Shown here: positions 34,192 to 54,698 of the stretch, piece by piece
Layout of the letters: each line of letters starts with the position of its first letter
Numbering within the stretch: the stretch's first letter is position 1
Assembly (NCBI GenBank): GCA_910574745.1
Contig: CAJTCE010000012.1
Span: 1-64,000 of the forward strand
Direction of reading: 5' to 3'
Length of the DNA stretch: 64,000 nt
Source of the DNA: Lachnospiraceae bacterium
Lineage (GTDB): Bacteria > Bacillota > Clostridia > Lachnospirales > Lachnospiraceae
Translations under genes and position numbers: made by a program
Notes under the pieces: generated by a model
Databases searched by the model: none
The model's input: the letters and a program-made list of their open reading frames with translations, nothing else
Told to the model about the DNA's origin: nothing

Positions 34192-34860
34192 CTACAATGT
34201 CCTGCGTTCCATAATCCGTAATGAAATCCCGTAGGAAATTCCCAATGTTGCCAGTACTAGGATAATAAAGGCGGGAATGATCAACGCTGTATTGGCTGTA
34301 AACAGAGACTGGACAAATTTTATAATGTCGGCTTTATAAATATGGAAGTGTTCCAGTACTTTATTGCCGATATAGACGGCGGCAACAATGATACCGAAGA
34401 CCAAAAAGATGGCAATTCTTCCGTTATCCCCTCCGAATTTCAGCTGTATGGGAAGCATAAACGCCACTATGAACAGGAGCATGAGATAAATCGAAAGGGC
34501 AACAGGGATAAAATCCGGTCCGATGAAGTTGATATTTTTAATCATGCCGATGACTGTACAGATGACGGTGGAAAAAATCAGGCCGACCATGCCACATATC
34601 AGACTGAAAACATATTTTTCCAGTACATAGGTTTTCCGGCTGACAGGAAGGGTAAATAGAAAACTGATACTGTGGTCCAGCTCGTCATAGCTGATGGTAG
34701 TCAACACAAACATGAAAAAGACGATGGTTATATAGCTGATGACAAAAGCGGCGGAGCTGGTAGAGGAGCTTGTAAGAAAGATAGAAACAATGCATAAAGC
34801 TACAAGCATTCTGATATTCAAAAAAATCAGTTGGAAGTCTTTGATCAATAAACCTTTCAT
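34192..34860 (-). CDS. ABC-2 type permease of the GntR-ABC operon
   Basis: A 222-residue protein with six likely membrane helices (for example LFLNIRMLVALCIVSIFLTS near the start and ALIIPAFIILVLATLGISYG near the end). It overlaps the ATPase gene by four bases. It completes a YtrA-type regulator/ATPase/permease unit. The substrate is unknown; related systems answer cell-wall antibiotics. Confidence 0.85.
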   Translation of the reverse strand: MKGLLIKDFQLIFLNIRMLVALCIVSIFLTSSSTSSAAFVISYITIVFFMFVLTTISYDELDHSISFLFTLPVSRKTYVLEKYVFSLICGMVGLIFSTVICTVIGMIKNINFIGPDFIPVALSIYLMLLFIVAFMLPIQLKFGGDNGRIAIFLVFGIIVAAVYIGNKVLEHFHIYKADIIKFVQSLFTANTALIIPAFIILVLATLGISYGISLRIMERRTL

Positions 34861-35708
34861 AATGTTTCTCCTTTCACTTTTAACATGATAATGTCGTCAA
34901 TGCTGCCTTTTTCCACGATGATACCCGGATAATTTTCCAGATAAAACCGCTTTTGGGCGGTCAGGCAGCGGTAGCCGTAGCTTTCCTTTAAAACGCTTAT
35001 AATATACTTTTTGTCCAGTTTATCATATTGCTTTTCGTCCACCTTTAAGGAGGCGTAATCCGATAAAAGCACGTCCGTATCCTCGTGGAGGATGATCTTT
35101 CCGTCGCAGATAAAGTAAATATCATCGCAAAGCCCTTCCAGATCCGTGGAAATGTGGGAACTGATCAGAATCCCATGGCTCTCGTCTTCCATATAATCAC
35201 GGAGCATATTCAAAACCTCGTCCCTTGCCACAACATCCAGGCCAGCAGTAGGCTCATCCAGGATCAGAAGCTTTGCGTCATGGCTTAATGCCACCAGTAC
35301 TTTAAGCTTTGCACACATTCCTGTGGAAAATTCCTTGATCTGTTTATCTAAAGGGAGACCGAAACGTTTACAGCGTTCTGCAAAGTCATTTTTGTCAAAT
35401 TTGTCATACATGGCGCTCATAACGGGAATGATCTTGCTTATCGTAAGATAGCCGGAAAAACCGCTGTCAGAAAGGACGATGGAAAGATCCTGCTTATCCT
35501 TGTTTGTTAAAGCGGTATGGGGCTTGCCGAATACGTTTATCTCCCCGCTGTCAATGTGGACAAGGTCCAGAATGGACTTAAAGGTGGTGCTTTTGCCTGC
35601 TCCGTTTTGCCCGATCAGGCCGGTCACGCATCCCGGTTCTAAGGACAGGGAGCAGTCCAGCTTGAAGTTATCATATTGTTTTAAAACATTTTTCATTTCT
35701 AAAATCAT
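34857..35708 (-). CDS. ABC transporter ATP-binding protein of the GntR-ABC operon
   Basis: A 283-residue ATPase with Walker A GQNGAGKSTT, signature EFSTGMCAKLKVLVALS and Walker B LLILDEPTAGLD. The signature is FSTGM rather than the canonical LSGGQ, as in other YtrB-like ATPases. A C-terminal accessory domain of about 80 residues follows. It overlaps both neighbours by four bases. Confidence 0.93.
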   Translation of the reverse strand: MILEMKNVLKQYDNFKLDCSLSLEPGCVTGLIGQNGAGKSTTFKSILDLVHIDSGEINVFGKPHTALTNKDKQDLSIVLSDSGFSGYLTISKIIPVMSAMYDKFDKNDFAERCKRFGLPLDKQIKEFSTGMCAKLKVLVALSHDAKLLILDEPTAGLDVVARDEVLNMLRDYMEDESHGILISSHISTDLEGLCDDIYFICDGKIILHEDTDVLLSDYASLKVDEKQYDKLDKKYIISVLKESYGYRCLTAQKRFYLENYPGIIVEKGSIDDIIMLKVKGETL

Positions 35709-36082
35709 AATGTGTCCTCCAGAATCATATCAAAGGTCTCTTTTATTTCCTGATTTGTCATACCGCAGCTTCTGCCCTTCTGAACGGCCATTTCCAGATC
35801 GGCTTCTACCTGCTTACGCATCTCTTCAAGGATCAGATCGCGGTTTGCCGGAGCTACAAAGCTTCCTTTACCGTGCACAGTAATGATAAAGCCCTCTTCC
35901 TCCAGACAGTCATAGGCTTTTTTAGCCGTCAATGCGCTGATCTTTAAATCCTTGGAAAGTGTTCGGACAGAAGGAAGTATTTCCTCTTCTTTTAGTTCGC
36001 CCGTCATAACAGCTCTTTTGATCTGCTCTACGATCTGTTCATATATGGGCTGCATGGACGAGTTGTTGATCATTAATTTCAT
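35705..36082 (-). CDS. GntR-family (YtrA type) transcriptional regulator
   Basis: I start at 36082 (MKLMINNSSMQPIYEQIV), six bases after GGAGGG, giving 125 residues. The GntR winged helix covers about residues 10-75 (LPSVRTLSKDLKISALTAKK, AYDCLEEEGFIITVHGKGSF). Only a short helical tail follows, which is the YtrA subgroup. Such regulators repress the ABC operon they head until a signal arrives. A perfect palindrome lies just upstream of the gene. Confidence 0.92.
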   Translation of the reverse strand: MKLMINNSSMQPIYEQIVEQIKRAVMTGELKEEEILPSVRTLSKDLKISALTAKKAYDCLEEEGFIITVHGKGSFVAPANRDLILEEMRKQVEADLEMAVQKGRSCGMTNQEIKETFDMILEDTL

Positions 36083-36123
36083 TTGTGTTCCCTCCATCTG
36101 ATAAACAGTATATAACAGTGTTT

Positions 36124-36140: not shown

Positions 36141-36298
36141 TCATCATAAAAATATTTTTTGTACAAAAGTAATAAGAAACGGGGCGTATAGGAAAGTATT
36201 TCTTTCCCCTTACCTATTGTCAAAAACAAAAAAAGAAAATAAAATAAAAGCAGGAAACAAAAAAGCAGGAAGAACAGTAGATCTGGGAAGAATCATTT

Positions 36299-36757
36299 AT
36301 GTTTCAATATTACAGATATAAATATTATTTTAATGCGGGACACAGCTTTTACAATGAAAGGGAAAATGCCCATACCCATACTTTTACTGTGGGCCTGTAT
36401 ATCGGTGGCGTTGAAAAGGGAAAGGACATTCCTTTTTTTGAAATAGACGCCATAGCAAAGGCGTACTTTACAAACTTTAAAGGGGTATACTTAAACGATA
36501 TGCCGGAATTTGCCGGGAAGGAGCCCAATATAGAAAATATGGGAGATGTATTTTATGAGGCTTTGCGAAAGCGGCTTGAGGAAGCGGGGCTTTCCCTGTA
36601 CCAGCTGGATATTTCTGAGAATCCCCTGTGCGTCTATCAGATTTCTGACAGGATCCTTTTACCCACATCCAGCATGGAGGAGAGCGGGAGGAACTTCAAA
36701 CAGATATTGGGAAGAAAGAAGCAGTTGACCACTTTGAAGCGAGGAGATGAAATATGA
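36299..36757 (+). CDS. 6-pyruvoyl-tetrahydropterin-synthase-like protein of the XrtG cluster (copy 1)
   Basis: A 152-residue T-fold protein. The zinc ligands of the PTPS/QueD family are recognisable: FNAGHSF at residues 11-17 and the HTH of AHTHTF. The Cys that precedes the second site in true synthases (CxxxHGH) is absent; the place reads RENAHTH. It is therefore unlikely to be a standard QueD. No other queuosine or folate genes are near. It heads the exosortase operon and overlaps the next gene by four bases, so its role probably lies with surface-protein processing or glycan assembly. Confidence 0.82.
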   Translation: MFQYYRYKYYFNAGHSFYNERENAHTHTFTVGLYIGGVEKGKDIPFFEIDAIAKAYFTNFKGVYLNDMPEFAGKEPNIENMGDVFYEALRKRLEEAGLSLYQLDISENPLCVYQISDRILLPTSSMEESGRNFKQILGRKKQLTTLKRGDEI

Positions 36758-37992
36758 AAGGAACTTTTACCATAAAGAGAAAACTGGCTATACTGACAGC
36801 TTTTATCGTGATCCTTACAAGCCATACCGTGAACGTTCTTGCAGATACGATGCGGACTGCGGATGGGGAAACGTTGGAGATTACCACAGACGGCACTTTT
36901 ATCTATATGGATTACGAAGGCCCCTGGTCTAATTATCTGGGAACGCAGATTGGCGTGGGAGTGAATGGAGCCCCGGCAAACGGAGCCATGTCGGGTATTG
37001 TATTGAATACAGGAAACGGCGGCGAGGGCGGAAGCTTTCAGGTCTATAATGCCTGGGGGCAGCCTATCGGCGGTGCGGAAGGCCGGATACAGAATTTAAA
37101 CCCAGGGCCGGAATACGGATATGAGACGATGAAATGGTCGGTAATGATCCCGGTAAGCGTTTATGGCGGAAAAGGGATTTCTGAAATATCCTTTGACTGG
37201 AAAGGGCAAAGGACAGAAGTTTTGCTGGACCATGGGAATATTCCAAATAAAGGCACGGATTCCAAAATAGGAAATGCGGACGGACAAGACGGAACACAAG
37301 GGAACAATCAGGACGGATCAGAGGGAGAGAGCGGTCAGGGCGAGGTAATCCAGGGTATGCCTGCGAATCCGCCGGTTATTACTTCCGGGCTGGCCGTAGA
37401 CGGATATTATGCCGACTGGTCGGGGTATCCTCAAACGCAGATCACTTATCTTGGCAATAATGCAAATGCGGTCCATATCGGACAGATGGCCGTTGAGGGG
37501 GACAGATTGTATGCCCATTTTTCCATGAGCGATCTATATACGTCCCAGATGCGGATCCAGATCTGGAATCTCCAGATCAACGGAAATACCTATCCTCTGC
37601 AGATACTTCCGGTAACGGGCAGCGGGGATATTGACTGGCAGAATTCCGAGGCAAAATGGGGAGAGGGCACTCATAGCAATTTTGATGTGTTTGTAGGGTA
37701 TTACCCTTCCTGTGAAGGAAAGGTGGCCTTTACCGTTTATGATGAAGCCCATACGATGGAAGGAAAGGGCGATGAGATTGAATTTTCCATCAGTCTGGAT
37801 AGACTGGCAGAGATTACGGGGGTACCGGTAGACCAGATGTCTACTATCAGGCTGAGCAATCCCAATATCGGTGCGGAAGGCGTTGAAATTTCCGGAACGC
37901 CTACGGGTCCCTGGCTTGGAGCCCTGGCTGCTTTGCTGATCGCATCGGGGTATCTGGCAAAAAGGAGAAAGGAAGAAAAAGGCTTATCATGA
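36754..37992 (+). CDS. Secreted Firmicu-CTERM sorting-domain protein (XrtG substrate)
   Basis: A 412-residue exported protein. A signal peptide covers about residues 1-32 (KRKLAILTAFIVILTSHTVN). The middle holds a VDGYYADWSGYPQT segment like that of known Firmicu-CTERM proteins, after a low-complexity linker rich in Gly, Asn, Gln and Asp (about 165-205). The last 32 residues are a sorting tail: GTPTGPWLG, a hydrophobic helix, then KRRK at about 403-406. By family knowledge such tails are cut by exosortases. The cognate enzyme XrtG is encoded by the next gene, overlapping by four bases, which strongly supports the pairing. Confidence 0.87.
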   Translation: MKGTFTIKRKLAILTAFIVILTSHTVNVLADTMRTADGETLEITTDGTFIYMDYEGPWSNYLGTQIGVGVNGAPANGAMSGIVLNTGNGGEGGSFQVYNAWGQPIGGAEGRIQNLNPGPEYGYETMKWSVMIPVSVYGGKGISEISFDWKGQRTEVLLDHGNIPNKGTDSKIGNADGQDGTQGNNQDGSEGESGQGEVIQGMPANPPVITSGLAVDGYYADWSGYPQTQITYLGNNANAVHIGQMAVEGDRLYAHFSMSDLYTSQMRIQIWNLQINGNTYPLQILPVTGSGDIDWQNSEAKWGEGTHSNFDVFVGYYPSCEGKVAFTVYDEAHTMEGKGDEIEFSISLDRLAEITGVPVDQMSTIRLSNPNIGAEGVEISGTPTGPWLGALAALLIASGYLAKRRKEEKGLS

Positions 37993-38582
37993 ACTGGTTT
38001 AGTATAGTTGTTTTTATCCTTTGGGTATACTTGCTGACAGTGTTAAAAAGGGGTAAGCTTGATTTCTGGTATTTTATAGCCGGCAGTGTGGGGCTGTTTA
38101 TCTTTTCCGTTATCTTTATAGAGCCCGTGGCTGTGGAGCCCCTCCAGAAGGCTGTTGCAGCCGCCGCCGGTATTCCGGGGCGGCTGACCGGGATATATGA
38201 ATCATATTTTCAAAAGGGTATTATTTTCATTTCTACGGGGGGCACAAGCCTGTCGCTTTATATCGACTTTGAATGCTCGGGAATCATCGAAACCCTGGCA
38301 TTCTTTGCATTGCTATGGTTTTTTCCTGTGTATCGGTTGTATGAGAAGGTTGTTGTCAGCATTGCAGGGGGGTTACTGATTTTTGCCTCCAACGTTCTGC
38401 GCATTTTTGTGATCTGTCTTGTGGTCTATTTCTTCGGAGGAGATATGTATTTTCTTGCCCATACGATCATTGGCAGGCTGGTATTTTATGCATGTACCAT
38501 AGCCCTGTATTTTTACGTATTTACCAAGTCGCAGATTATCAGACAGAAAGTAGGAGGGCTGCGGTATGAAATTCATAAGTGA
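37989..38582 (+). CDS. xrtG: Exosortase family protein XrtG
   Basis: A 197-residue membrane protein with about six helices. The exosortase triad can be placed: Cys96 in DFECSGIIE, Arg138 in SNVLRIF and His158 in LAHTIIGRL. The length and the neighbours match the Gram-positive XrtG group. It would cut C-terminal Firmicu-CTERM tails on the outer face of the membrane and perhaps transfer the protein to another molecule, as sortases do; the acceptor is unknown. It overlaps the glycosyltransferase gene by 17 bases. Confidence 0.92.
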   Translation: MNWFSIVVFILWVYLLTVLKRGKLDFWYFIAGSVGLFIFSVIFIEPVAVEPLQKAVAAAAGIPGRLTGIYESYFQKGIIFISTGGTSLSLYIDFECSGIIETLAFFALLWFFPVYRLYEKVVVSIAGGLLIFASNVLRIFVICLVVYFFGGDMYFLAHTIIGRLVFYACTIALYFYVFTKSQIIRQKVGGLRYEIHK

Positions 38583-39978
38583 TTTTTTCAGAAGCTCTAT
38601 CTTTTTCTGGGCGGCGTGGGTCATTATCCCCATTTTGATGGAAGTGCTCCCCACCGTTGCTGATTTTTTTATCCTTCTAAAGAAAAGGATTTTTCATAAA
38701 AAGGAAGAGCAACAGGATTTCTTCCCGGAAATCACTTTGATCGTTCCGGTATATAATTCAGCGGACAGCTTATACCGCTGCATAGAATCGATCCACAATT
38801 CGGATTATGACAATGAATTGATCTATATTCTCTTAGTGAATAATATGAGTACGGATAACAGTTTTGAAGTATTCTGCCAGTGCCAGAAGGATTTTCCGGG
38901 GCTGACCATCAACTGGGTAAATTCCAGGCAGGGCAAATCGAAAGCGCTGAATCTGGGTCTGTTTAACAGCTACGGTAAATATATCATCCACATCGACAGC
39001 GACGGTGTGCTGCATAAGGATGCCCTGCGCAATATGGTCCTTAAATTTGAGCAGGACCCGGGGATCCAGTGCATGACGGGAACCATCATGACCAATCCGG
39101 AGATGATAGACGGCACAAAGGGATTTTTTAAACGGCAGTTCAGGAAACTGGAATTTTTTGAATACTGTCAGGCCTTCCTGGCAGGAAGGAATTTTCAGTC
39201 GGAATTTAATAATATTTTCACACTGTCGGGGGCGTTTTCTGCCTTCCGGAAATCCTCTATTTTAAAGACCCAGCTTTATAATACCGAAACAGTGTGCGAG
39301 GATACCCACGTTACCTTTCAGATCCGTGATATGAGAAAGGAAAGAGTGGCGCTTTGTGTCGACGCCATTTTCTTTGTGGACCCTATTGAGGATATGAACC
39401 GGCTTTATATCCAGAGACAGAGGTGGCAGCGCGGGGAGCTGGAAGTCATGCACATGTTTAAGAAGGAGAGGATGGGTGCGGTAAAAGGGTTCTTATCCAG
39501 CTTTATCATCCGCCTTGTCATGTTTGACCACACCTTTGCCTTCCCCAGGATGATATGGTATTTTGCCCTGATCTGTCTTGGGTTTATCAATTACCCTTTC
39601 AGCCTTATCATACAGTCGGTTTTTGTGATGTATCTTCTGTATGTATTTTCTTCGGTCCTTTTGTATTTTTGCATCGTCATGTTTTTGTGGAAATTTGAGG
39701 ACTTGCGGAAATATTATGCCAGGAAATGGTATCTGGTGTTTTTCCTGCCCCTGTACAATTTCCTTATTTTCTGGTTCCGGTTTGCAGGGATCATCAACTC
39801 CATAAAAGGAGCGTCCACTTGGAAAATGAGGAATTTTACGGAAGAAAAAGAAGTGGTAAAAAAGATCGTAAAAAAAGATTTCCTCTGGTTTACCACCTTG
39901 TTAGAGGCCTTGAGAAGGGAAGTCAATGTACAGGATGGGGAGCAGGCGGAAACGCCAAAGGAGCAGGCGGCCGGATAA
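38566..39978 (+). CDS. XrtG-associated family 2 glycosyltransferase
   Basis: A 470-residue membrane GT2. An N-terminal helix (about 8-30) precedes the catalytic domain, with ITLIVPVYNSADSLY, the metal-binding HIDSDGV and the processive-type QRQRWQRGE motif at about residue 285. Several helices follow (about 305-420). The layout is that of membrane synthases such as NodC or hyaluronan synthase. It corresponds to the glycosyltransferase group that regularly accompanies XrtG. It may polymerise a glycan used as, or attached to, the sorted protein's anchor. Confidence 0.9.
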   Translation: MKFISDFFRSSIFFWAAWVIIPILMEVLPTVADFFILLKKRIFHKKEEQQDFFPEITLIVPVYNSADSLYRCIESIHNSDYDNELIYILLVNNMSTDNSFEVFCQCQKDFPGLTINWVNSRQGKSKALNLGLFNSYGKYIIHIDSDGVLHKDALRNMVLKFEQDPGIQCMTGTIMTNPEMIDGTKGFFKRQFRKLEFFEYCQAFLAGRNFQSEFNNIFTLSGAFSAFRKSSILKTQLYNTETVCEDTHVTFQIRDMRKERVALCVDAIFFVDPIEDMNRLYIQRQRWQRGELEVMHMFKKERMGAVKGFLSSFIIRLVMFDHTFAFPRMIWYFALICLGFINYPFSLIIQSVFVMYLLYVFSSVLLYFCIVMFLWKFEDLRKYYARKWYLVFFLPLYNFLIFWFRFAGIINSIKGASTWKMRNFTEEKEVVKKIVKKDFLWFTTLLEALRREVNVQDGEQAETPKEQAAG

Positions 39979-40036
39979 ATCGGCGGGAACAGTCGGAGTT
40001 TAAGATAAGGATCAAGAGAAGGAAAAGGAGAGAAAA

Positions 40037-40873
40037 ATGGATAAACGGACAGTTAAAAATATAGATAGAAATGCAGATAATAATGCAGATAGTATTATGG
40101 ATACGAATGCAGGTAAAAAGCTGTATGTTGTACTTCCCGCCTATAATGAGGAAGAAAATGTGGAGATCATGGTAAAGGGATGGCTTCATTACAAAGAGCG
40201 GATCTTTGATAAATTCCGTCTGGGAATGGAAATCGTTATCGTCAATGACGGAAGCAGCGATAGAACAAAGGAAATCGGGGAGAAAATGGAAAAAGATTTT
40301 CCGGAGTGCCGTCTCATAAACCATTCCGTCAATAAGGGACTTGGGGAAGCGTTGAAAACAGGGCTTTTCTATGCCAAAGAAAAGGCAGACTGCGCCTGCG
40401 TCTGCGTTATGGACTGCGACAATACCCAAAAGCCTAAGTATATCGGCAGGATGCTTTACGGCATGTACAAAAGCGGAAAAGCTCCCGACGTGGTCATTGC
40501 CTCCAGATACTGCAGGGGTTCGGAGGTTTTTGGAGTGGCAGGACACAGGCTTTTGACCAGCCAGGGAGCGCGTTTTGTATACCAGCTGATCTTAGGGGTT
40601 CCCGGCGTCAGGGACTATACATGCGGCTACCGGCTTTATAAAAGGGAAGCCCTTTTAGCGGCGGGAGAATTGTATGGGGAAGGGCTGATAGAGGAAAGCG
40701 GGTTTACCTGTATGGCGGAGCTGCTTTATAAGCTTTACCGCTCAGGAGCTTCCTTTATGGAGGTCCCCTTTTCGCTGCATTATGAGGATAAGAAGGGAAG
40801 TAGTAAAATGAAAGTGATAAAAACCGCGCTAAACAGTATAATATTAGCTTTTAACCTGCGGCTTTCCCTGTAA
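40037..40873 (+). CDS. Family 2 glycosyltransferase, dolichyl-phosphate-mannose-synthase-like
   Basis: A 278-residue GT2 with LPAYNEEENVEI, VNDGSSDRT and the metal-binding VMDCDNTQ. The order and spacing resemble polyprenyl-phosphate hexose synthases (DPM1, ArnC). The last helices (LNSIILAFNLRLSL) may touch the membrane. Such enzymes charge undecaprenyl phosphate with a sugar for GT-C transferases on the outer face; an 833-residue GT-C-like membrane protein is encoded in the same operon. The first 30 residues are an Asn/Asp-rich repeat (ADNNADSIMDTNAG). Confidence 0.87.
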   Translation: MDKRTVKNIDRNADNNADSIMDTNAGKKLYVVLPAYNEEENVEIMVKGWLHYKERIFDKFRLGMEIVIVNDGSSDRTKEIGEKMEKDFPECRLINHSVNKGLGEALKTGLFYAKEKADCACVCVMDCDNTQKPKYIGRMLYGMYKSGKAPDVVIASRYCRGSEVFGVAGHRLLTSQGARFVYQLILGVPGVRDYTCGYRLYKREALLAAGELYGEGLIEESGFTCMAELLYKLYRSGASFMEVPFSLHYEDKKGSSKMKVIKTALNSIILAFNLRLSL

Positions 40874-40924
40874 GAGGACGGGGATTCGTTCCCTAAACGG
40901 GAAAAAAGTTATGGAGAGAATATA

Positions 40925-42022
40925 ATGGGAAAATTAGCTTCTTTGTTTACAAACAGGGAAAAGAGAATGCCGGCGATCTTATATATGTGCCTTATTTTAA
41001 CGATCATAGGCGCTGTGTTTACAGGCAGGGAATTGATACAAAACCGCAGGGCTTATATCGGGGAATTTGAGAGAAGCCAGAGGGAGGAGACAACGATTTT
41101 AAAAGCGGCCCTGGAAGGGCAGACGGAAGGGGAAATGACCGACTTTATCAGGAGGGCTTTTCCGGCATCGGGAGCGCAGTGGGCCTTTCTTTATCATGAT
41201 AAGGAGGTAGTCTTTGCAAAAAACGATACAACGACCCAAAATCTGGGGGCTTTAAAGGAAACGGGAGCCTTTCTCGCTTATCTGGAGGGACAGGAAGGAA
41301 TTTTGACCGTCAGCGACGCCTTTTTATCTGATGAGGGAAAAAACTATTATATCGGCATCATATCGGATAGGGACCATGCTCTATCGCTGGCGGGGGTAAC
41401 CAGCCATGAGATTTATATCATATTGTGTCTGTCCGCCGTGACGCTGATCTTTGCCGGCGGCCTGATCTTTGTCACAGGACTTTTGAATGCAAGGGACGAG
41501 AGCCTTTTTAAGGTCCGGGGGGAGCTTGTAGAGAGAAACGAGAAGTTTGCCGAATACGAAGAGGAGCTTTTGCAGGACGAAGAAGATGCAAAGGAGCGGC
41601 TTTTGCGGGATGAAGGCGGGCAGGGGAGAAAGGAATATTATGATAAGGACGTATTTAGGATGCTTCTTAATAAATCCTCGGATCCGGCCCTTTTTCCCAT
41701 TACCTTCATGCTTGCAAGAGTGGTAATGGAAGACCGCTATTACGGGCGCGACGAGATTTTCGGCGCTATGGATTTCATTAAGGAACGCCTTAAGAATACC
41801 CAGATACTGGCTGAGCTGGGAAAGGGAAGATTTGCTGCCATCCTTTACAAGACAGAACTTTCGGAAGCCAAAGAGCAGAAAGAGGAAATAATATCCGCAT
41901 GGAATGAGTCGGATAAGAGCAGGGAATTAAAACTGGAATTAAAGCTGTATCCGGTCATGGAGGGAGAAGAGCCGTCAGAGGCTTTTAAAAAGAGCGGTTT
42001 TTTAAAAAACCAGGAGGAATAG
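40925..42022 (+). CDS. Membrane sensor-like protein with degenerate GGDEF-like domain
   Basis: A 365-residue protein. Membrane helices at about 17-36 and 162-188 enclose an extracytoplasmic domain of about 125 residues. A charged coiled coil follows (about 195-235). The last 130 residues (KDVFRMLLNKSSDPALFP, MLARVVMEDRYYGRDEIFG, LGKGRFAAILY) keep the rhythm of GGDEF domains, but the GGDEF signature itself is replaced by GKGRF and cannot act as a cyclase. The assignment is tentative. It lies inside the XrtG operon and may be a regulator. Confidence 0.6.
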   Translation: MGKLASLFTNREKRMPAILYMCLILTIIGAVFTGRELIQNRRAYIGEFERSQREETTILKAALEGQTEGEMTDFIRRAFPASGAQWAFLYHDKEVVFAKNDTTTQNLGALKETGAFLAYLEGQEGILTVSDAFLSDEGKNYYIGIISDRDHALSLAGVTSHEIYIILCLSAVTLIFAGGLIFVTGLLNARDESLFKVRGELVERNEKFAEYEEELLQDEEDAKERLLRDEGGQGRKEYYDKDVFRMLLNKSSDPALFPITFMLARVVMEDRYYGRDEIFGAMDFIKERLKNTQILAELGKGRFAAILYKTELSEAKEQKEEIISAWNESDKSRELKLELKLYPVMEGEEPSEAFKKSGFLKNQEE

Positions 42023-42027
42023 ATTTT

Positions 42028-42474
42028 ATGCGGTATAAACAATATAAATTTAAATTTTATCTCAATGCCAGACACGCCATATACCGGGACGGCGTTATGG
42101 GACAGGTACATCCCCATACGTGGGAGATTACCTTAAACGTGATAAAGGGCAGGGATGAATTTGTGGAGTTTTATGTGCTGGAACGAAAGGTGGAGGAATT
42201 TATGGAAACATTCCAGGACCGGCTTTTAAATGAGATAAAACCCTTCGACGTACGAAATCCCACGCTGGAAAACTGCTGTGAATATTTTAAGGACCGGCTT
42301 GTAGAAATCCTCAATAAAGAAGGGTGGATTTTTTTGATGATGGAAATGAGCGAGACTCCTGCGCGTTCCTATGTGATCAGTCTGATCGACGAGGGAGAAA
42401 ACGCGGATACCCAGTCCCTCAATACATTGACTGATATGCTGTTAAAGGAGATCAAGAGTGCAAAAAAACAATAA
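42028..42474 (+). CDS. 6-pyruvoyl-tetrahydropterin-synthase-like protein of the XrtG cluster (copy 2)
   Basis: A 148-residue T-fold protein related to the protein encoded at 36299. It keeps NARHAIY and the VHPHTWEI zinc-site residues and the late Glu region (MEMSETPARSY). As in copy 1 the catalytic Cys is missing; the place reads MGQVHPH. It overlaps the large membrane protein gene by 17 bases. Two such proteins in one operon suggest a hetero-oligomer or two separate steps. Confidence 0.8.
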   Translation: MRYKQYKFKFYLNARHAIYRDGVMGQVHPHTWEITLNVIKGRDEFVEFYVLERKVEEFMETFQDRLLNEIKPFDVRNPTLENCCEYFKDRLVEILNKEGWIFLMMEMSETPARSYVISLIDEGENADTQSLNTLTDMLLKEIKSAKKQ

Positions 42475-44959
42475 AAAGCGGGAAAGCGGCCTTATCTTTT
42501 CGTGGAAAAATTTCATATTTTTCGCCGGCCTTCTGCTTCTGGCAGTCCTTAGCATCTGCTATGTGATCTTTTTAAAAAACAAAGGGATCGATCCTTCGGG
42601 AAACGATATCTGGGGGCATTTATTCAAATCGGAGATCATGTATGAAAACATAAAAAAGGGAAATTTCTATCCCCTTTATGAAAGCAGCTGGTATAACGGC
42701 ATTCAGCTGTATCGTTACTGGGCGCCCCTTCCTTATTATCTGATGGCGCTTTTGATCTTTATAGAAGACGGCAGCCTGATCGTAGCGTATTATCTCTTTG
42801 CGGGAGTATCCCTGTTTTTTGGAGGCGTCCCTTTTATTCTCATGGGAAGAAGGGGAGAAAAGCCCTATATGGGGATTTCCTTTGCCCTGCTCTGGTTTTT
42901 TATGCCGGAAAATTTCCGGGTATTTTTTTGTGAAGGAAATCTGCCGCGTATGCTGACGGGAATCATCATCCCCTATTTGATCTACTTTTTGTGGAGATAT
43001 TTGAGGGAAGGAAAAAAAGCGGCTTTACCGGGGATCGTACTCACAATGGCGATGATCACTCTTTCCCATGTGATGATAGCGGCAATGGCGGGAGTGGGGG
43101 CGTTTTTGTTCCTGCTGTTTGACTACTTTAAGAACAGAAGATTTGGCAGAAGCGTCCGGATTTTATGGAGTATGGTCTGCGGCATCATGATAACCGGGAT
43201 CTGGCTGCTTCCCGCTCTATCCGGCGGTATGGTATCCATGAACCCGGAAGCCGGTTCTAAGGTCATGGAATCTTTGATGTATCATTTGTCCGTGTCTTTA
43301 AATCCCATGAACCGGATAGGCGGCATAACCGATACATTTTATTACGGCATTGCGGTAACTTTTCTGTCTGTGGCAGGCATTTTACTGGCGCAGAATAAAA
43401 AGAAAGCGGGATTTATTTTAAGCCTTGTGATCCTTATTTTGACAACGCCGGCGCTGCTTCCTGTTTTAAGAAAGATGCCCTTAAACCAGCTTTTCTGGAT
43501 GATGCGTTTTGCAACGATCGTGTACGGTTTCTTCTTCCTCTCCATGCTGGAGTGGAAAAGCCTGAAGGTCCGGTACGGTGCGCTGGCGGTGCTTCTTCTC
43601 ATAGCGGATTGTGTTCCTTCGTTTATGTTTGACCGATACCTGACGGAAGCCTCAGAAAATGCGGTGGTCAATACAAAAGAGGTAAAAGAGCTGACGGTGC
43701 AGAGAGCCGCGCTTATGGATTTGAGCAGTCTGGGTTCTTACCCCTCCTATGAGCTTTGCAGGGGAGAGGGGGCAGTTGATTATACTTATGGATGGGCCTG
43801 GCAGGGAGCCGCAACGAGTGAAAATATCGTGATGCTGAATACGGCCCTGGAAAATGAAGCCTATGTATATTTGTTTGACCGCTGTCTGGAGTTAGGAAAT
43901 GATACGGTCCTTGTGTTTAAGCAGTATATCGGAAAAAAGGGAAAGACCTATGAAGATCTTTTGGCGGGGGCAGAAGCCAGCGGCTATTTTAAAACGGCGG
44001 AAACCGAAGTGGCGTATATATTCAAAAAAGATACTCCAAAATCCTTCGGGACTGTAACGGAATACCATGGGCTTGCAGTGGGCAGCTACGCAAATATCAT
44101 GACCTTATATTATCCGGGCTTTACAGAGGGAAATTCCGATTATTTGGATGATTATACGTTAGAAGAGCTTTGCGGATATAAGGCCGTATTCTTAAGCGGA
44201 TTTTCTTACCGGGACAGGGAAAAGGCGGAAAAGCTTTTACAGGATGCGTCCGATAAGGGCGTTAAGGTCGTTTTGGATATGACCCATGTGCCTGCCGACG
44301 AGAAAACGAAGCAGCAGACTTTTCTGGGGATCACGGCAATGCCTGTTACCTTTCACAAACGCTTTCCCATGCTGTATTATAACAACAGGGAAATCCTCCT
44401 AAGGGAGTTTTCGGAAGATAACACCCTGTGGAATACAGGGTATCTTACAGGCAATATGGACATTACCGGACGATTTTCCTTTGAAGGGGAGGAACTGGTC
44501 TTTGCAGGCGTGGATCCGAATCACGAAAATATCTGCTATCTGGGGCTGAATCTGATGTATCATGCTACAGAGACCGGAGATGAAGAGGCGCTTTCGGTCA
44601 TGACAGAGCTTCTTTGTATCCCTGTGGAGCAGCTTCCTTTCAGAAAGCTGGTTGTTCTTTCATATGAGGCGGATGCAGAAGGGCTTACCATCAGAGCGGA
44701 AGGCGGATATGAAAAGGCTGTGATCAATACCACGCTGGCCTATCAGGATATTTTTGATTCCGACAGGCCCATAGAGCGGCAGAATAATCTGCTTAAAACG
44801 GCTTCGGGAGAGACGAGGATCACGTTCCGTTATCCCCTGTTAAAGCCGGGAATCTTTGTAAGTCTCCTGGGCCTTTTGATGGCGGCGGTTCCGTGGATAT
44901 GGTCCGTGTTTTCCGGAAAAAAGAAAAAACGGCCCTGTGGGGAAGAAAATGCAGGTTAA
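42458..44959 (+). CDS. Large GT-C-like membrane protein, PTPS-related (PF10131 type)
   Basis: An 833-residue protein with a GTG start seven bases after GGAG. It has about ten to twelve membrane helices in the first 410 residues, a large extracytoplasmic domain (about 410-800) and one last helix (about 805-825). GNDIWGHLFKSEIMYENIKK in the first loop supplies the acidic residues expected in GT-C transferases. This matches the membrane family called PTPS-related because its genes sit beside PTPS-like ones, as here. It probably transfers a lipid-linked sugar on the outer face, using the product of the DPM-like enzyme. Confidence 0.82.
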   Translation: MQKNNKKRESGLIFSWKNFIFFAGLLLLAVLSICYVIFLKNKGIDPSGNDIWGHLFKSEIMYENIKKGNFYPLYESSWYNGIQLYRYWAPLPYYLMALLIFIEDGSLIVAYYLFAGVSLFFGGVPFILMGRRGEKPYMGISFALLWFFMPENFRVFFCEGNLPRMLTGIIIPYLIYFLWRYLREGKKAALPGIVLTMAMITLSHVMIAAMAGVGAFLFLLFDYFKNRRFGRSVRILWSMVCGIMITGIWLLPALSGGMVSMNPEAGSKVMESLMYHLSVSLNPMNRIGGITDTFYYGIAVTFLSVAGILLAQNKKKAGFILSLVILILTTPALLPVLRKMPLNQLFWMMRFATIVYGFFFLSMLEWKSLKVRYGALAVLLLIADCVPSFMFDRYLTEASENAVVNTKEVKELTVQRAALMDLSSLGSYPSYELCRGEGAVDYTYGWAWQGAATSENIVMLNTALENEAYVYLFDRCLELGNDTVLVFKQYIGKKGKTYEDLLAGAEASGYFKTAETEVAYIFKKDTPKSFGTVTEYHGLAVGSYANIMTLYYPGFTEGNSDYLDDYTLEELCGYKAVFLSGFSYRDREKAEKLLQDASDKGVKVVLDMTHVPADEKTKQQTFLGITAMPVTFHKRFPMLYYNNREILLREFSEDNTLWNTGYLTGNMDITGRFSFEGEELVFAGVDPNHENICYLGLNLMYHATETGDEEALSVMTELLCIPVEQLPFRKLVVLSYEADAEGLTIRAEGGYEKAVINTTLAYQDIFDSDRPIERQNNLLKTASGETRITFRYPLLKPGIFVSLLGLLMAAVPWIWSVFSGKKKKRPCGEENAG

Positions 44960-45022
44960 CGGAATATGATTTGAGGGTCAGATGAACATGCAGGAATGTT
45001 TGCCCGACCCATGGAGGTAAAA

Positions 45023-46135
45023 ATGAAAAAGAAATTGATTCTTGTTTTTGGGACCAGGCCGGAGGCCATAAAAATGTGCCCTCTCGTCAGGGAATTAAAA
45101 AAAAGGGACTCTTTTCAGGCGGTCGTATGCGTTACGGGACAGCATAAGGAAATGCTGAAACAGGTGCTTAAAAGTTTCGGGATCGTGCCGGATTACGATC
45201 TTAAGATCATGGAAAGAGGACAGACCCTGTTTGACATTACGGAAAAGGTCCTATCAGGTATGAAAAGAATCTATGAGGCGGAAAGGCCGGATATGGTGCT
45301 GGTACACGGGGATACGAGCACGGCTTTTGCCAGCGCCCTGGCGGCCTTTTATGAAAATATCCCCATAGGACATGTGGAGGCGGGGCTTAGGACCTATGAT
45401 ATACGGTCCCCTTATCCGGAGGAGTTTAACAGACAGGCCATCGGCAGTATGGCTCTTTTCCATTTTGCTCCTACAGAGGCGGCTGCCGGGCATCTTTTGA
45501 GGGAGGGAAAGAAAAGAGAACGGATTTTTGTTACGGGAAATACGGCAATTGATGCGCTTGCCACAACAGTCTCACGGGGCCATTTCAGCCCTGCTTTAAA
45601 GGAAATCGATGAATGGACGGATGGCGGAAGGCTTATCTTGCTGACGGCTCACCGCAGGGAAAATCTCGGAAAGCCCCTTTATGAAATTTTTGAAGGAATC
45701 AGGGAAGTGCTTTTGGAGCATAATGATTTAAAAATGGTCTACCCCGTTCATTATAACCCCATAGTGAGGGAAGCCGCAGATCAGGTATTTGCAGGCATGG
45801 ACAGGGTAAAGCTGATCGAACCCATGGAGGTAGTGGATTTCCATAATCTGATGGAACGTAGTTTCCTGATCCTGACCGACAGCGGCGGGATCCAGGAGGA
45901 AGCGCCGGCTTTAGGGAAGCCCGTTTTGGTGCTGAGGGATACCACGGAACGTCCGGAAGGAATGAAAGCGGGGACGCTGCGGCTTGCAGGGACAAAGAAA
46001 GAAAATATTTCCGGGGAATTTAAACTTTTGGTTGAAAATCACGAAATATATGATAAGATGAGTCAGGCGGTCAATCCTTATGGAGACGGGACGGCCAGCA
46101 GACAGATTGCGGATATTTTGGAGAGGTCGTGTTAA
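45023..46135 (+). CDS. wecB: UDP-N-acetylglucosamine 2-epimerase (non-hydrolysing)
   Basis: The enzyme interconverts UDP-GlcNAc and UDP-ManNAc. I start at 45023, after GGAGG, giving 370 residues, the family norm. Motifs in order: VFGTRPEAIKM, VHGDTSTAFA, GHVEAGLRT, EEFNRQAIG, TAHRRENLG and DSGGIQEEAP. Its place in the XrtG operon suggests the glycan made here contains ManNAc or a derivative. The symbol is by family; the cell may hold another copy for teichoic acid. Confidence 0.94.
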   Translation: MKKKLILVFGTRPEAIKMCPLVRELKKRDSFQAVVCVTGQHKEMLKQVLKSFGIVPDYDLKIMERGQTLFDITEKVLSGMKRIYEAERPDMVLVHGDTSTAFASALAAFYENIPIGHVEAGLRTYDIRSPYPEEFNRQAIGSMALFHFAPTEAAAGHLLREGKKRERIFVTGNTAIDALATTVSRGHFSPALKEIDEWTDGGRLILLTAHRRENLGKPLYEIFEGIREVLLEHNDLKMVYPVHYNPIVREAADQVFAGMDRVKLIEPMEVVDFHNLMERSFLILTDSGGIQEEAPALGKPVLVLRDTTERPEGMKAGTLRLAGTKKENISGEFKLLVENHEIYDKMSQAVNPYGDGTASRQIADILERSC

Positions 46136-46532: not shown

Positions 46533-47426
46533 ATGTCGGACTTTGAATGGAAAGAGATCACAGAGGCAAAGCGGGAGCTGTTTCAGGGCTTTTATGAAAG
46601 AGAACAGTCCAGAAGCTGCGAGCATTCCTTTACCAATAACCTTTTGTGGTCGCCCTTTTATGGAACAAAGTATTGTGTGATAGAAGGAAATCTGGTGTTT
46701 AAATCGGGAGAGGACAGGCTTTCGGTCAGTTATCCCATAGGAAAGGATCAGGTTAAAAAAACGGTGGACAGGCTGATTCAATACTTTGAGGAGCAAAAGA
46801 AGCCTTTTTGTATGCATTCCGTAACGCCGGAGCAGTTTGAATCGCTGAACGGGATGTATCCCGGAAAATTTCAGATCGCTTATGACAGGGACTGGGCAGA
46901 TTATGTTTATGAATCCGAAAAGCTTATTTCCTTAAGCGGGAAGAAGCTTCATGGGAAGAGGAACCACATCAACAATTTCATCAAGACCTATCCCGATTAT
47001 CAATATGAAAGGATCAACGGGGAAAATAGAGAGGAATGTATAGAGCTGGCGCAAAACTGGCGGAAGGAGAACGGGTGCGACAGTGACCCTGAGAAAAATG
47101 AGGAGTTCTGCGTAACCTTAAGGGCTTTAAAGGAACTGGAAGATTTAAACCTAACGGGAGGGCTCATCCGGGCAGATGGCAGGGTGGTCGCCTTCAGCAT
47201 CGGGGAAAAGCTCTGCAACGATACCTTTGTGGTCCATATCGAAAAAGCATATGCCGATATTCAGGGAGCCTATCCCATTATCAACCAGCAGTTTGTGCTC
47301 CATGAAGCGGCGGATTACCGTTATATTAACAGGGAAGAGGACACGGGAGCGGAAGGTCTGAGGAAAGCCAAGCTGTCCTATTATCCCGTATTTTTGCAGG
47401 AAAAGGGTGTTGTTACCACAAAGTGA
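46533..47426 (+). CDS. DUF2156-family (GNAT-like) protein
   Basis: A 297-residue protein of the DUF2156 type, related to the C-terminal aminoacyl-transferring domain of MprF and to FemX-like acyltransferases. Visible parts are TNNLLWSPFYGTKYCV near the start, GKKLHGKRNHINNFIK in the middle, GGLIRADGRVVAFSIGEKL and HIEKAYADIQGAYPIINQQF. The protein is soluble here, with no MprF membrane part. It ends the XrtG region, 96 bases after the small gene. Possible roles are amino-acid or acyl transfer to the surface polymer. Confidence 0.83.
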   Translation: MSDFEWKEITEAKRELFQGFYEREQSRSCEHSFTNNLLWSPFYGTKYCVIEGNLVFKSGEDRLSVSYPIGKDQVKKTVDRLIQYFEEQKKPFCMHSVTPEQFESLNGMYPGKFQIAYDRDWADYVYESEKLISLSGKKLHGKRNHINNFIKTYPDYQYERINGENREECIELAQNWRKENGCDSDPEKNEEFCVTLRALKELEDLNLTGGLIRADGRVVAFSIGEKLCNDTFVVHIEKAYADIQGAYPIINQQFVLHEAADYRYINREEDTGAEGLRKAKLSYYPVFLQEKGVVTTK

Positions 47427-52973: not shown

Positions 52974-54698
52974 ATGCCTGAAAATCAAAAAGCGGAAAAC
53001 CTGTTAAATCTGTCTCTGGACGCTACGGAGGCGGAAAGAATGGCGTCTCCCGTTCTTAGTGCGGGGACGGATGCGGATAATGAGCACTGGGAGGTTATTG
53101 TAAAATTTCATGGAGACATATCCCGGCTTGCGGGAGAAGACATTAAGGTGGAGATTTTGTCTGCGGGATATGGGATTATCACTCTGCCAAAGCGGTATAT
53201 AGAGGCGTTGGCGGCGTTAGAGGAAATAGAATTTGTGGAAAAGCCCAAACGGCTTTATGCAAATGACGGAGCCGGAAATTTTGCAAGCTGTCTTTACAGC
53301 AACAGTGTCCTTGGAAACCAATATAGAGGTGCGGGAATCTGCATTGCTGTCATAGACAGCGGTTTATCCTTTGAAATGCCTGCCTTCCGCAACCCGGATG
53401 GGACCAGCAGGGTGCTTTACTATCTGGATCAGACTCAGGACAGGGAATATACCAAAGAAGAGCTGGATGCTATTTTACTGAATGGTGTAAACGATCGGGA
53501 AAACCGCCCGACTCCGGATAATTCCGGACATGGAACTGCTGTGGCCGCCATAGCGGCGGGTAACGGAAGAAGGGCTGACGGAGGCGTGGATGTTAATTTA
53601 GTGGGTATGGCGCCCCAGGCGTCTTTGATGATCGTAAAGCTGGATACCGGAGCCAACAGCAGCTTTCCCCTTACCACATCCTTGATGCGCGCAGTAGACT
53701 ATGTGGTTAATAAAGGCGTTCAGATACAAATGCCTCTGGCGGTAAATTTAAGCTTTGGAAATACTTACGGAGCGCATGACGGGACGGCGCTGATTGAAAG
53801 ATACATCAATAATATGGCGGAGGTGGGAAGGACTGTTATCTGCGTGGGAAGCGGCAATGAAGGCGCGGCAGGCGGACATGCGGCAGGAGTGATAGAGGCG
53901 TATGAAAGGGAGCGGGTTGTGGAATTTACCATGGGCGCTTATGAAAGAGAATTCAATCTGCAGATGTGGCTGAATTTTGTGGACAGCTATGAAATTACTT
54001 TGCAATCTCCTTCGGGAGATTCTTTTATTTTCAGCACGGAGAGCGATATGGGACTTACTATCAGAAGAAGGCTTGCGGATACGTCCCTGCTGATTTTTGT
54101 GGGAGCGCCCCAGCCCTATAGCGTAAATCAGGAAGTATTTTTGGATTTTATTCCTGTCTCGACTTATGTAAATCAAGGCGTATGGAGGCTGATACTGCGT
54201 CCTACAAGGCTGGTATCGGGTAACTACAGCCTTTATATGCCTTCATCCCAGATTAAAGGCGGGGATACCAGATTCCTGCGCCCTGTTCCCGAGCAGACTC
54301 TTACCATACCTTCCACAGCGGAACGGGTTATTACAGTCGGGGCTTACAACAGCGTTTATGAAGCTTATGCCGACTTTTCGGGGAGAGGATATGTAACAAG
54401 ACTTTCGGAAGGATATATCAGTGTGGTAAAACCGGAAATTGCAGCTCCCGGTGTGGGGATTTTAGCGGAAAACGCTTATGGCTTGCAGCGTTTAGAAGGA
54501 ACCAGCTTTGCAACGCCCTTTGTGACGGGAGCGGCGGCGCTTTTGATGGAGAGGGCCATATTGGGAGGCGAAGACCCTTACCTGTATGGGGAGAAGATGA
54601 AGGCGTGGCTGTGCCGGCATGCGAAGAAGCTGGCGGGGGGAGGAGAAGTGCCGGATGATAAGACGGGCTGGGGAGGACTGTGTGTGGCAGATGTATAA
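52974..54698 (+). CDS. Subtilisin-like serine protease (S8 family)
   Basis: A 574-residue protease. The catalytic triad is placed at Asp128 (AVIDSGL), His186 (NSGHGTAVAAIAAG) and Ser511 (GTSFATPFVTGAAALL). Between His and Ser lies an inserted beta-rich domain of about 150 residues (about 300-445), as in the Csp/bacterial S8 group that processes spore-germination enzymes. There is no signal peptide; the first 100 residues look like a propeptide-type domain (EVIVKFHGDISRL). The place in the cell is uncertain. Confidence 0.93.
   Translation: MPENQKAENLLNLSLDATEAERMASPVLSAGTDADNEHWEVIVKFHGDISRLAGEDIKVEILSAGYGIITLPKRYIEALAALEEIEFVEKPKRLYANDGAGNFASCLYSNSVLGNQYRGAGICIAVIDSGLSFEMPAFRNPDGTSRVLYYLDQTQDREYTKEELDAILLNGVNDRENRPTPDNSGHGTAVAAIAAGNGRRADGGVDVNLVGMAPQASLMIVKLDTGANSSFPLTTSLMRAVDYVVNKGVQIQMPLAVNLSFGNTYGAHDGTALIERYINNMAEVGRTVICVGSGNEGAAGGHAAGVIEAYERERVVEFTMGAYEREFNLQMWLNFVDSYEITLQSPSGDSFIFSTESDMGLTIRRRLADTSLLIFVGAPQPYSVNQEVFLDFIPVSTYVNQGVWRLILRPTRLVSGNYSLYMPSSQIKGGDTRFLRPVPEQTLTIPSTAERVITVGAYNSVYEAYADFSGRGYVTRLSEGYISVVKPEIAAPGVGILAENAYGLQRLEGTSFATPFVTGAAALLMERAILGGEDPYLYGEKMKAWLCRHAKKLAGGGEVPDDKTGWGGLCVADV

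Follow-up and report, generated by a model that had tools for sequence, protein, structure and literature searches.

PTPS-fold proteins without the pterin synthase catalytic residues in an exosortase G operon of a Lachnospiraceae bacterium

Results

The genes described here lie within the window, the whole 64,000-nucleotide stretch of DNA from a Lachnospiraceae gut bacterium that was analysed, and their profile matches identify the locus as an exosortase G (XrtG) operon. The open reading frames overlap or almost abut one another from the gene that we call PTPSa through the gene for the PF10131 GT-C protein (Table 1). An earlier note on this DNA had seen two PTPS-like proteins in one operon, which the profile matches bear out, but its account of the context was incomplete: the XrtG system, the identity of the proteins as TIGR03112 members and the dead-GGDEF partner of the second PTPS protein were overlooked. 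For comparison we used 81 loci, comprising the window and 80 named loci retrieved via PTPSb, 53 of which were long enough to judge and are referred to as full loci.

Table 1. Genes and features of the XrtG operon and its immediate surroundings (window coordinates)
Feature	Position	Strand	Details
Promoter-like match upstream of operon	36217..36245	+	10/12 positions, consensus match only
PTPSa (PTPS-fold, TIGR03112)	36299..36757	+	152 aa; PF01242 and TIGR03112 profile matches
Firmicu-CTERM sorting-domain protein (TIGR04145), presumed XrtG substrate	36754..37992	+	2.9e-41, 141.5 bits, above cut-off
XrtG exosortase (TIGR03110)	37989..38582	+	207.7 bits, above cut-off
XrtG-associated GT2 (TIGR03111; PgaC/IcaA-like)	38566..39978	+	1.2e-193, 643.8 bits, above cut-off
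Second GT2 glycosyltransferase	40037..40873	+	Found in 17/53 full related loci
Membrane protein (two TM) whose residues 235-362 form a degenerate, cytoplasmic GGDEF domain	40925..42022	+	AlphaFold model and alignment
PTPSb (PTPS-fold, TIGR03112)	42028..42474	+	148 aa; PF01242 and TIGR03112 profile matches
GT-C family membrane protein (PF10131 PTPS_related)	42458..44959	+	2.3e-183
UDP-GlcNAc 2-epimerase (WecB/MnaA)	44996..46135	+	36 nt downstream of GT-C gene

The wecB gene that follows the GT-C gene was found in only 4 of the 53 full loci and is therefore accessory to the XrtG locus; a poly-ManNAc product made via this neighbour was considered and discarded as not general. Divergent from the operon, on the far side of a 200-bp gap that contains promoter-like matches on each strand, are genes that we annotated by eye as a GntR-type regulator, an ABC ATPase and a permease (34192-36097, minus strand). 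After the operon comes a gene for an LPG_synthase_C protein (46533-47426, plus strand; PF09924, 6e-55), and further along a subtilase with a CspB prodomain (52974-54698, plus strand; PF18425) adjoins a MATE transporter and a Mur-ligase-like protein.

Both PTPS-fold proteins match PF01242 (1.7e-13 for PTPSa, 4e-14 for PTPSb) and, by their scores of 83 and 139.7 bits, are members of the catalogued family TIGR03112 ("6-pyruvoyl tetrahydropterin synthase-related domain", curated cut-off 69.35 bits). Their scores against the QueD profile TIGR03367 (25.6 and 31.2 bits) fall well below its cut-off of 89.25. An AF2 model of PTPSb (pLDDT 88.8) is closest to the structures of PH0634/QueD, with Z of 14-15 against PTPS/QueD structures (Z 15.2 and rmsd 2.4 over 113 aligned residues for 2dj6). 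The predicted fold is that of the COG0720/PTPS T-fold with its three zinc histidines.

A quick maximum-likelihood tree with 184 rows served to place the domains; its inner order is weak given the short alignment of 128 columns. In this tree 53 QueD references occupy one side of a branch with SH-aLRT 99, and the TIGR03112-type domains fall outside that QueD clade, which answers the comparison with QueD that the earlier note had proposed. Most XrtG-linked domains form a type-a group (support 91) and a type-b group (94), joined at 96, and single-copy PTPS-GT-C fusions branch outside both; the types were assigned by a Trp at position 32 together with fusion to GT-C. Both proteins are under purifying selection, with dN/dS against the close relative L097, as single-pair estimates, of 0.053 for type a and 0.040 for type b, lower than for XrtG (0.097) and the sensor (0.182) in the same pair. 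Type a evolves fast and is absent from some loci, as might be expected of decaying relics, but dN/dS values of 0.04-0.05 leave such a reading with very little probability, and for type b, with the invariant zinc site and Glu described below, it is already refuted.

The COG0720 subfamily motifs were taken as given in PMC5041015. The earlier note had read RENAHTH in PTPSa and MGQVHPH in PTPSb as keeping the zinc-site histidines while losing the catalytic Cys, and the alignment agrees: the zinc ligands are H15/H25/H27 in PTPSa and H16/H28/H30 in PTPSb, and the CxxxHGH motif of QueD/PTPS-I is found in neither protein, with R21 and M24 standing at the Cys position four residues before the second zinc His. 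Two features had escaped that reading, namely that the Asp-His dyad is also lost (K61-G62 in PTPSa, Q63-D64 in PTPSb) and that PTPSa, which reads ExxHTH, carries E22 at the place of the PTPS-III (ExxHGH) Glu. The loss is not due to chance: across 178 homologous domains, a set in which some genomes are counted twice so that the counts are not all independent, both the Cys and the Asp-His dyad of QueD/PTPS-I occur in none and the three zinc histidines in 173. By comparison, 55 QueD-type references, one or two of which are not QueD (L015, L048), have the Cys in 53, the dyad in 52, the zinc histidines in 53 and the Glu in all 55. The PTPS-II motif CxxxxxHGH can likewise be set aside, as the 7 residues preceding the second zinc His contain no Cys in any of the 178 homologs, and by alignment none of them has an alternative Cys in its catalytic loop. 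Of the two outcomes that the earlier note named as refuting its view, another catalytic Cys and a place within the QueD clade, neither arose. With the catalytic residues lost family-wide, both proteins are probably non-catalytic. Complementation in trans between active-site parts of PTPSa and PTPSb was rejected, the same residues being lost in both.

The remainder of the pocket differs between the two types. All 99 type-b domains lack the Cys and the dyad and keep the three zinc histidines and Glu109, with Glu81 kept in 98; E33 and Q63 (95 of 99 each) and R113 (93 of 99) are further near-invariant polar residues. PTPSb itself keeps T79, E81 and E109, which correspond to the ring-acceptor residues of PTPS, T105-T106-E107 and E133/E161 (PMC7546909). 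Among the 79 type-a domains, again without Cys or dyad, 74 have the three zinc histidines, and the Glu109 place holds Glu in 51 (E107 in PTPSa) and Asp in 25, a drift at the anchoring Glu which suggests that the type-a pocket may not work. Judging by the retained ligands, PTPSa and PTPSb probably bind zinc.

Could the two proteins nevertheless still make pterins, as enzymes of PTPS-III or hybrid type? In Plasmodium PTPS the motif Glu is needed for activity, the product of the nucleophile mutant E38L being undetectable (PMC2229834), and a Glu occupies this place in 19 of 46 separate type-a proteins. This Glu is not conserved, however, and type b has Gly there; the dyad is missing from 178 of 178 domains, and the domains placed in the tree fall outside the QueD clade. 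The window's own genome (99.6% complete) has no QueD and no credible QueC (two 21-bit partial matches only), and it encodes FolE and FolB on a different contig, in line with the earlier note's remark that no queuosine or folate genes lie nearby. With FolB present at 122.9 bits, there is no missing FolB for a PTPS-III enzyme to bypass. Of the two GTP cyclohydrolases I, FolE is missing from 5 of the 16 XrtG-bearing family genomes, four of these five being at least 96% complete, and FolE2 is absent from all 16, so that four near-complete carriers have neither. The type-b domains of the five FolE-less genomes retain the zinc histidines and Glu; to the extent that the assemblies are complete, the conserved pocket therefore has no de novo dihydroneopterin triphosphate to rely on there, salvaged folates being a possible source. 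Residues, clade and pathway together led us to reject pterin synthase activity of the QueD, PTPS-II or PTPS-III kind, and a working enzyme of PTPS-III or hybrid type strikes us as exceedingly improbable. Separately, the L240 locus (genome G513) encodes a Cys-bearing QueD-like protein (CKKCQEQLHGH), and FolE and FolE2 were not found in that genome.

The presence of TIGR03112 follows that of XrtG closely. Scores above cut-off for the two families were found in exactly the same 16 of 250 Lachnospiraceae genomes, and in a phylum sample of 348 genomes all 11 TIGR03112 genomes were among the 12 XrtG genomes. The probability of such overlap by chance is about 1e-25 (family) and 1e-19 (phylum) assuming independent genomes, which these are not fully, though the 16 carriers come from 16 genera. 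A genome of the same genus as the window genome (G433) is without TIGR03112 and XrtG, and the system is thus patchy within the genus. On the short contigs of L070 and L071 (genome G287), several PTPS-like domains are present in proteins of 159-492 aa with no XrtG on the contig.

XrtG, the TIGR03111-type GT2 and the Firmicu-CTERM protein are each present in 53 of the 53 full loci. The GT-C protein, whose family PF10131 belongs to the GT-C clan of Pfam (PMC7801869), is present in 51. Two PTPS domains were found in 43 full loci and one in 10; a sensor was detected in 34 and none in 19. In 15 full loci, as well as in deeper branches, the type-a domain is fused as the N-terminal domain of the GT-C protein, presumably on the cytoplasmic side, and a single PTPS-GT-C fusion also occurs in XrtG systems of distant families (L061-L069). 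In 7 full loci the type-b domain is instead the C-terminal domain of the two-TM sensor, whose GGDEF part is missing there. The fusions thus tie one PTPS domain to the GT-C protein, a tie that the earlier note had supposed, and the other to the sensor.

The partner proteins were examined by alignment and modelling. The XrtG catalytic residues are conserved (C96 in 90 of 93 aligned members, R138 and H158 in 93 of 93). A loop Asp of the GT-C protein (D50) is found in 60 of 79. In L084 (7435-10311), L154 and L164 the XrtG-linked GT2 has some 500 additional residues, for a length of 958-982 aa. The sensor has no Pfam match of its own, and PF00990 directly matched 5 of 33 aligned members; its AlphaFold model (pLDDT 90) has a C-terminal GGDEF fold, with Z 14.4 and rmsd 2.1 over 125 aligned residues against DosC (4zvf). 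The GGDEF active-site motif is degenerate in all 33 (GKGRF in the window copy), and the RxxD I-site is absent from the window copy, which has KNTQ at that place. By its motifs this GGDEF domain is dead, with no diguanylate cyclase motif.

Such a sensor raises the idea that PTPSb has succeeded the dead GGDEF domain and serves as receptor of a guanine-type signal such as c-di-GMP or GTP. The sensor-PTPS fusions, in which PTPS stands in the place of GGDEF, are consistent with it, as are the loss of both active-site motif and I-site, and T-fold proteins do bind guanine or pterin rings (PDB 3v9o, 1sql). GGDEF proteins (7-27 per genome) are present in 26 of 26 XrtG genomes, a figure for XrtG genomes only, which we did not count toward the best explanation given below. 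On the other hand, c-di-GMP exceeds the size of the usual PTPS-pocket ligand, and we regard this role for PTPSb as improbable. The same low estimate applies to the wider proposal that a dead PTPS-fold domain serves as cytoplasmic ligand-receptor of a membrane glycan and protein-sorting machine, reading a guanine-type signal in place of GGDEF.

Discussion

Our preferred explanation, which we hold to be likely though by no means certain, is that both proteins are T-fold subunits which have no catalytic activity, probably bind zinc, and serve to dock or regulate an XrtG-linked glycosyltransferase complex. Taking family, fold, the loss and retention of residues, the operon, XrtG co-occurrence and the fusions as established, we infer from them a docking or regulatory role, an oligomer bridging GT-C to sensor, and a class of ligand. 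PTPSa would act on the cytoplasmic face of the GT-C glycosyltransferase, and PTPSb on that of the two-TM sensor, beside the dead GGDEF domain or replacing it. Like other PTPS-fold proteins, the two may assemble as trimers or hexamers, possibly mixed, and the oligomer could hold sensor, GT-C and GT2 together as one complex. PTPS enzymes are hexamers whose pocket is formed between three subunits, which makes a bridging role plausible. The pocket, with its retained zinc ligands and Glu, might accept a small molecule, by default for this fold one with a guanine- or pterin-like ring, and its binding would act as a switch for glycan synthesis or loading. On the outside, XrtG would meanwhile process the Firmicu-CTERM protein. 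A strict bridge between a and b cannot be general, since 10 of the 53 full loci have a single PTPS domain and 19 are without a detected sensor.

The earlier note had viewed the proteins as repurposed, either as binding proteins or as enzymes of another reaction. The loss of catalysis stands and a binding role comes near our preferred explanation; the second option, in which the zinc site would serve some other chemistry (with, say, a nucleotide-sugar or sugar phosphate that supplies the glycosyltransferases as its substrate), we consider less likely, with a minor share of the probability. It would make use of the retained zinc histidines and Glu, and type b has near-invariant polar residues of its own in E33, Q63 and R113. 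However, no single conserved residue set replaces Cys/Glu and Asp-His in both types, the PTPS domains are fused to membrane proteins in the manner of regulatory modules, and some carriers lack the means to produce the usual pterin substrate.

Compared with QueD/PTPS-I, -II and -III of COG0720, the proteins described here have in common the fold, the zinc histidines and the pterin-anchoring Glu, but they differ in having no catalytic Cys and no Asp-His dyad, in forming a separate clade, in scoring below the QueD and PTPS family cut-offs, and in having no queuosine partners. Gram-negative exosortase/PEP-CTERM systems of the EpsH type (PMC1569441) likewise combine an exosortase, a protein with a C-terminal sorting signal and polysaccharide genes; the system studied here belongs to the XrtG branch, and its operon encodes a Firmicu-CTERM protein, PTPS-fold domains and a GT-C protein. 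The Listeria Pss exopolysaccharide operon also pairs a PgaC-like GT2 with a membrane protein carrying a GGDEF domain that has no enzymatic activity (PMC4125290). That operon has a BcsB-like PssD, its paper names no exosortase or PTPS domain, and its PssE binds c-di-GMP via an I-site (PMC4125290). A Listeria-type Pss operon was rejected here, since none of the ten window proteins that were scanned matched BcsB and the I-site is absent.

The closest known setting is that of TIGR03112 in XrtG loci, from which our two proteins do not differ in family or in XrtG-operon context. This same neighbourhood is probably noted in the TIGR03112 family text, and both TIGR03112 and XrtG are already catalogued in NCBIfam. 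Our literature search for TIGR03112, TIGR03111 and Firmicu-CTERM retrieved nothing beyond a mention of the system by name in L. plantarum (PMC12854382), and a functional study of XrtG, a Gram-positive exosortase, was not found in the open literature. To this the present analysis adds the family-wide loss of catalytic residues, two types (a and b) that differ in fusion partner, the sensor with its dead GGDEF domain, and carriers without pterin synthesis. TIGR03112 is named as if it made pterins, an annotation that the family-wide loss corrects, and the PTPS-like domain emerges as the most constant companion of XrtG besides a glycosyltransferase and the presumed substrate. The conserved pocket and defined fusion partners make its function testable in terms of zinc, oligomer state, ligand and partner.
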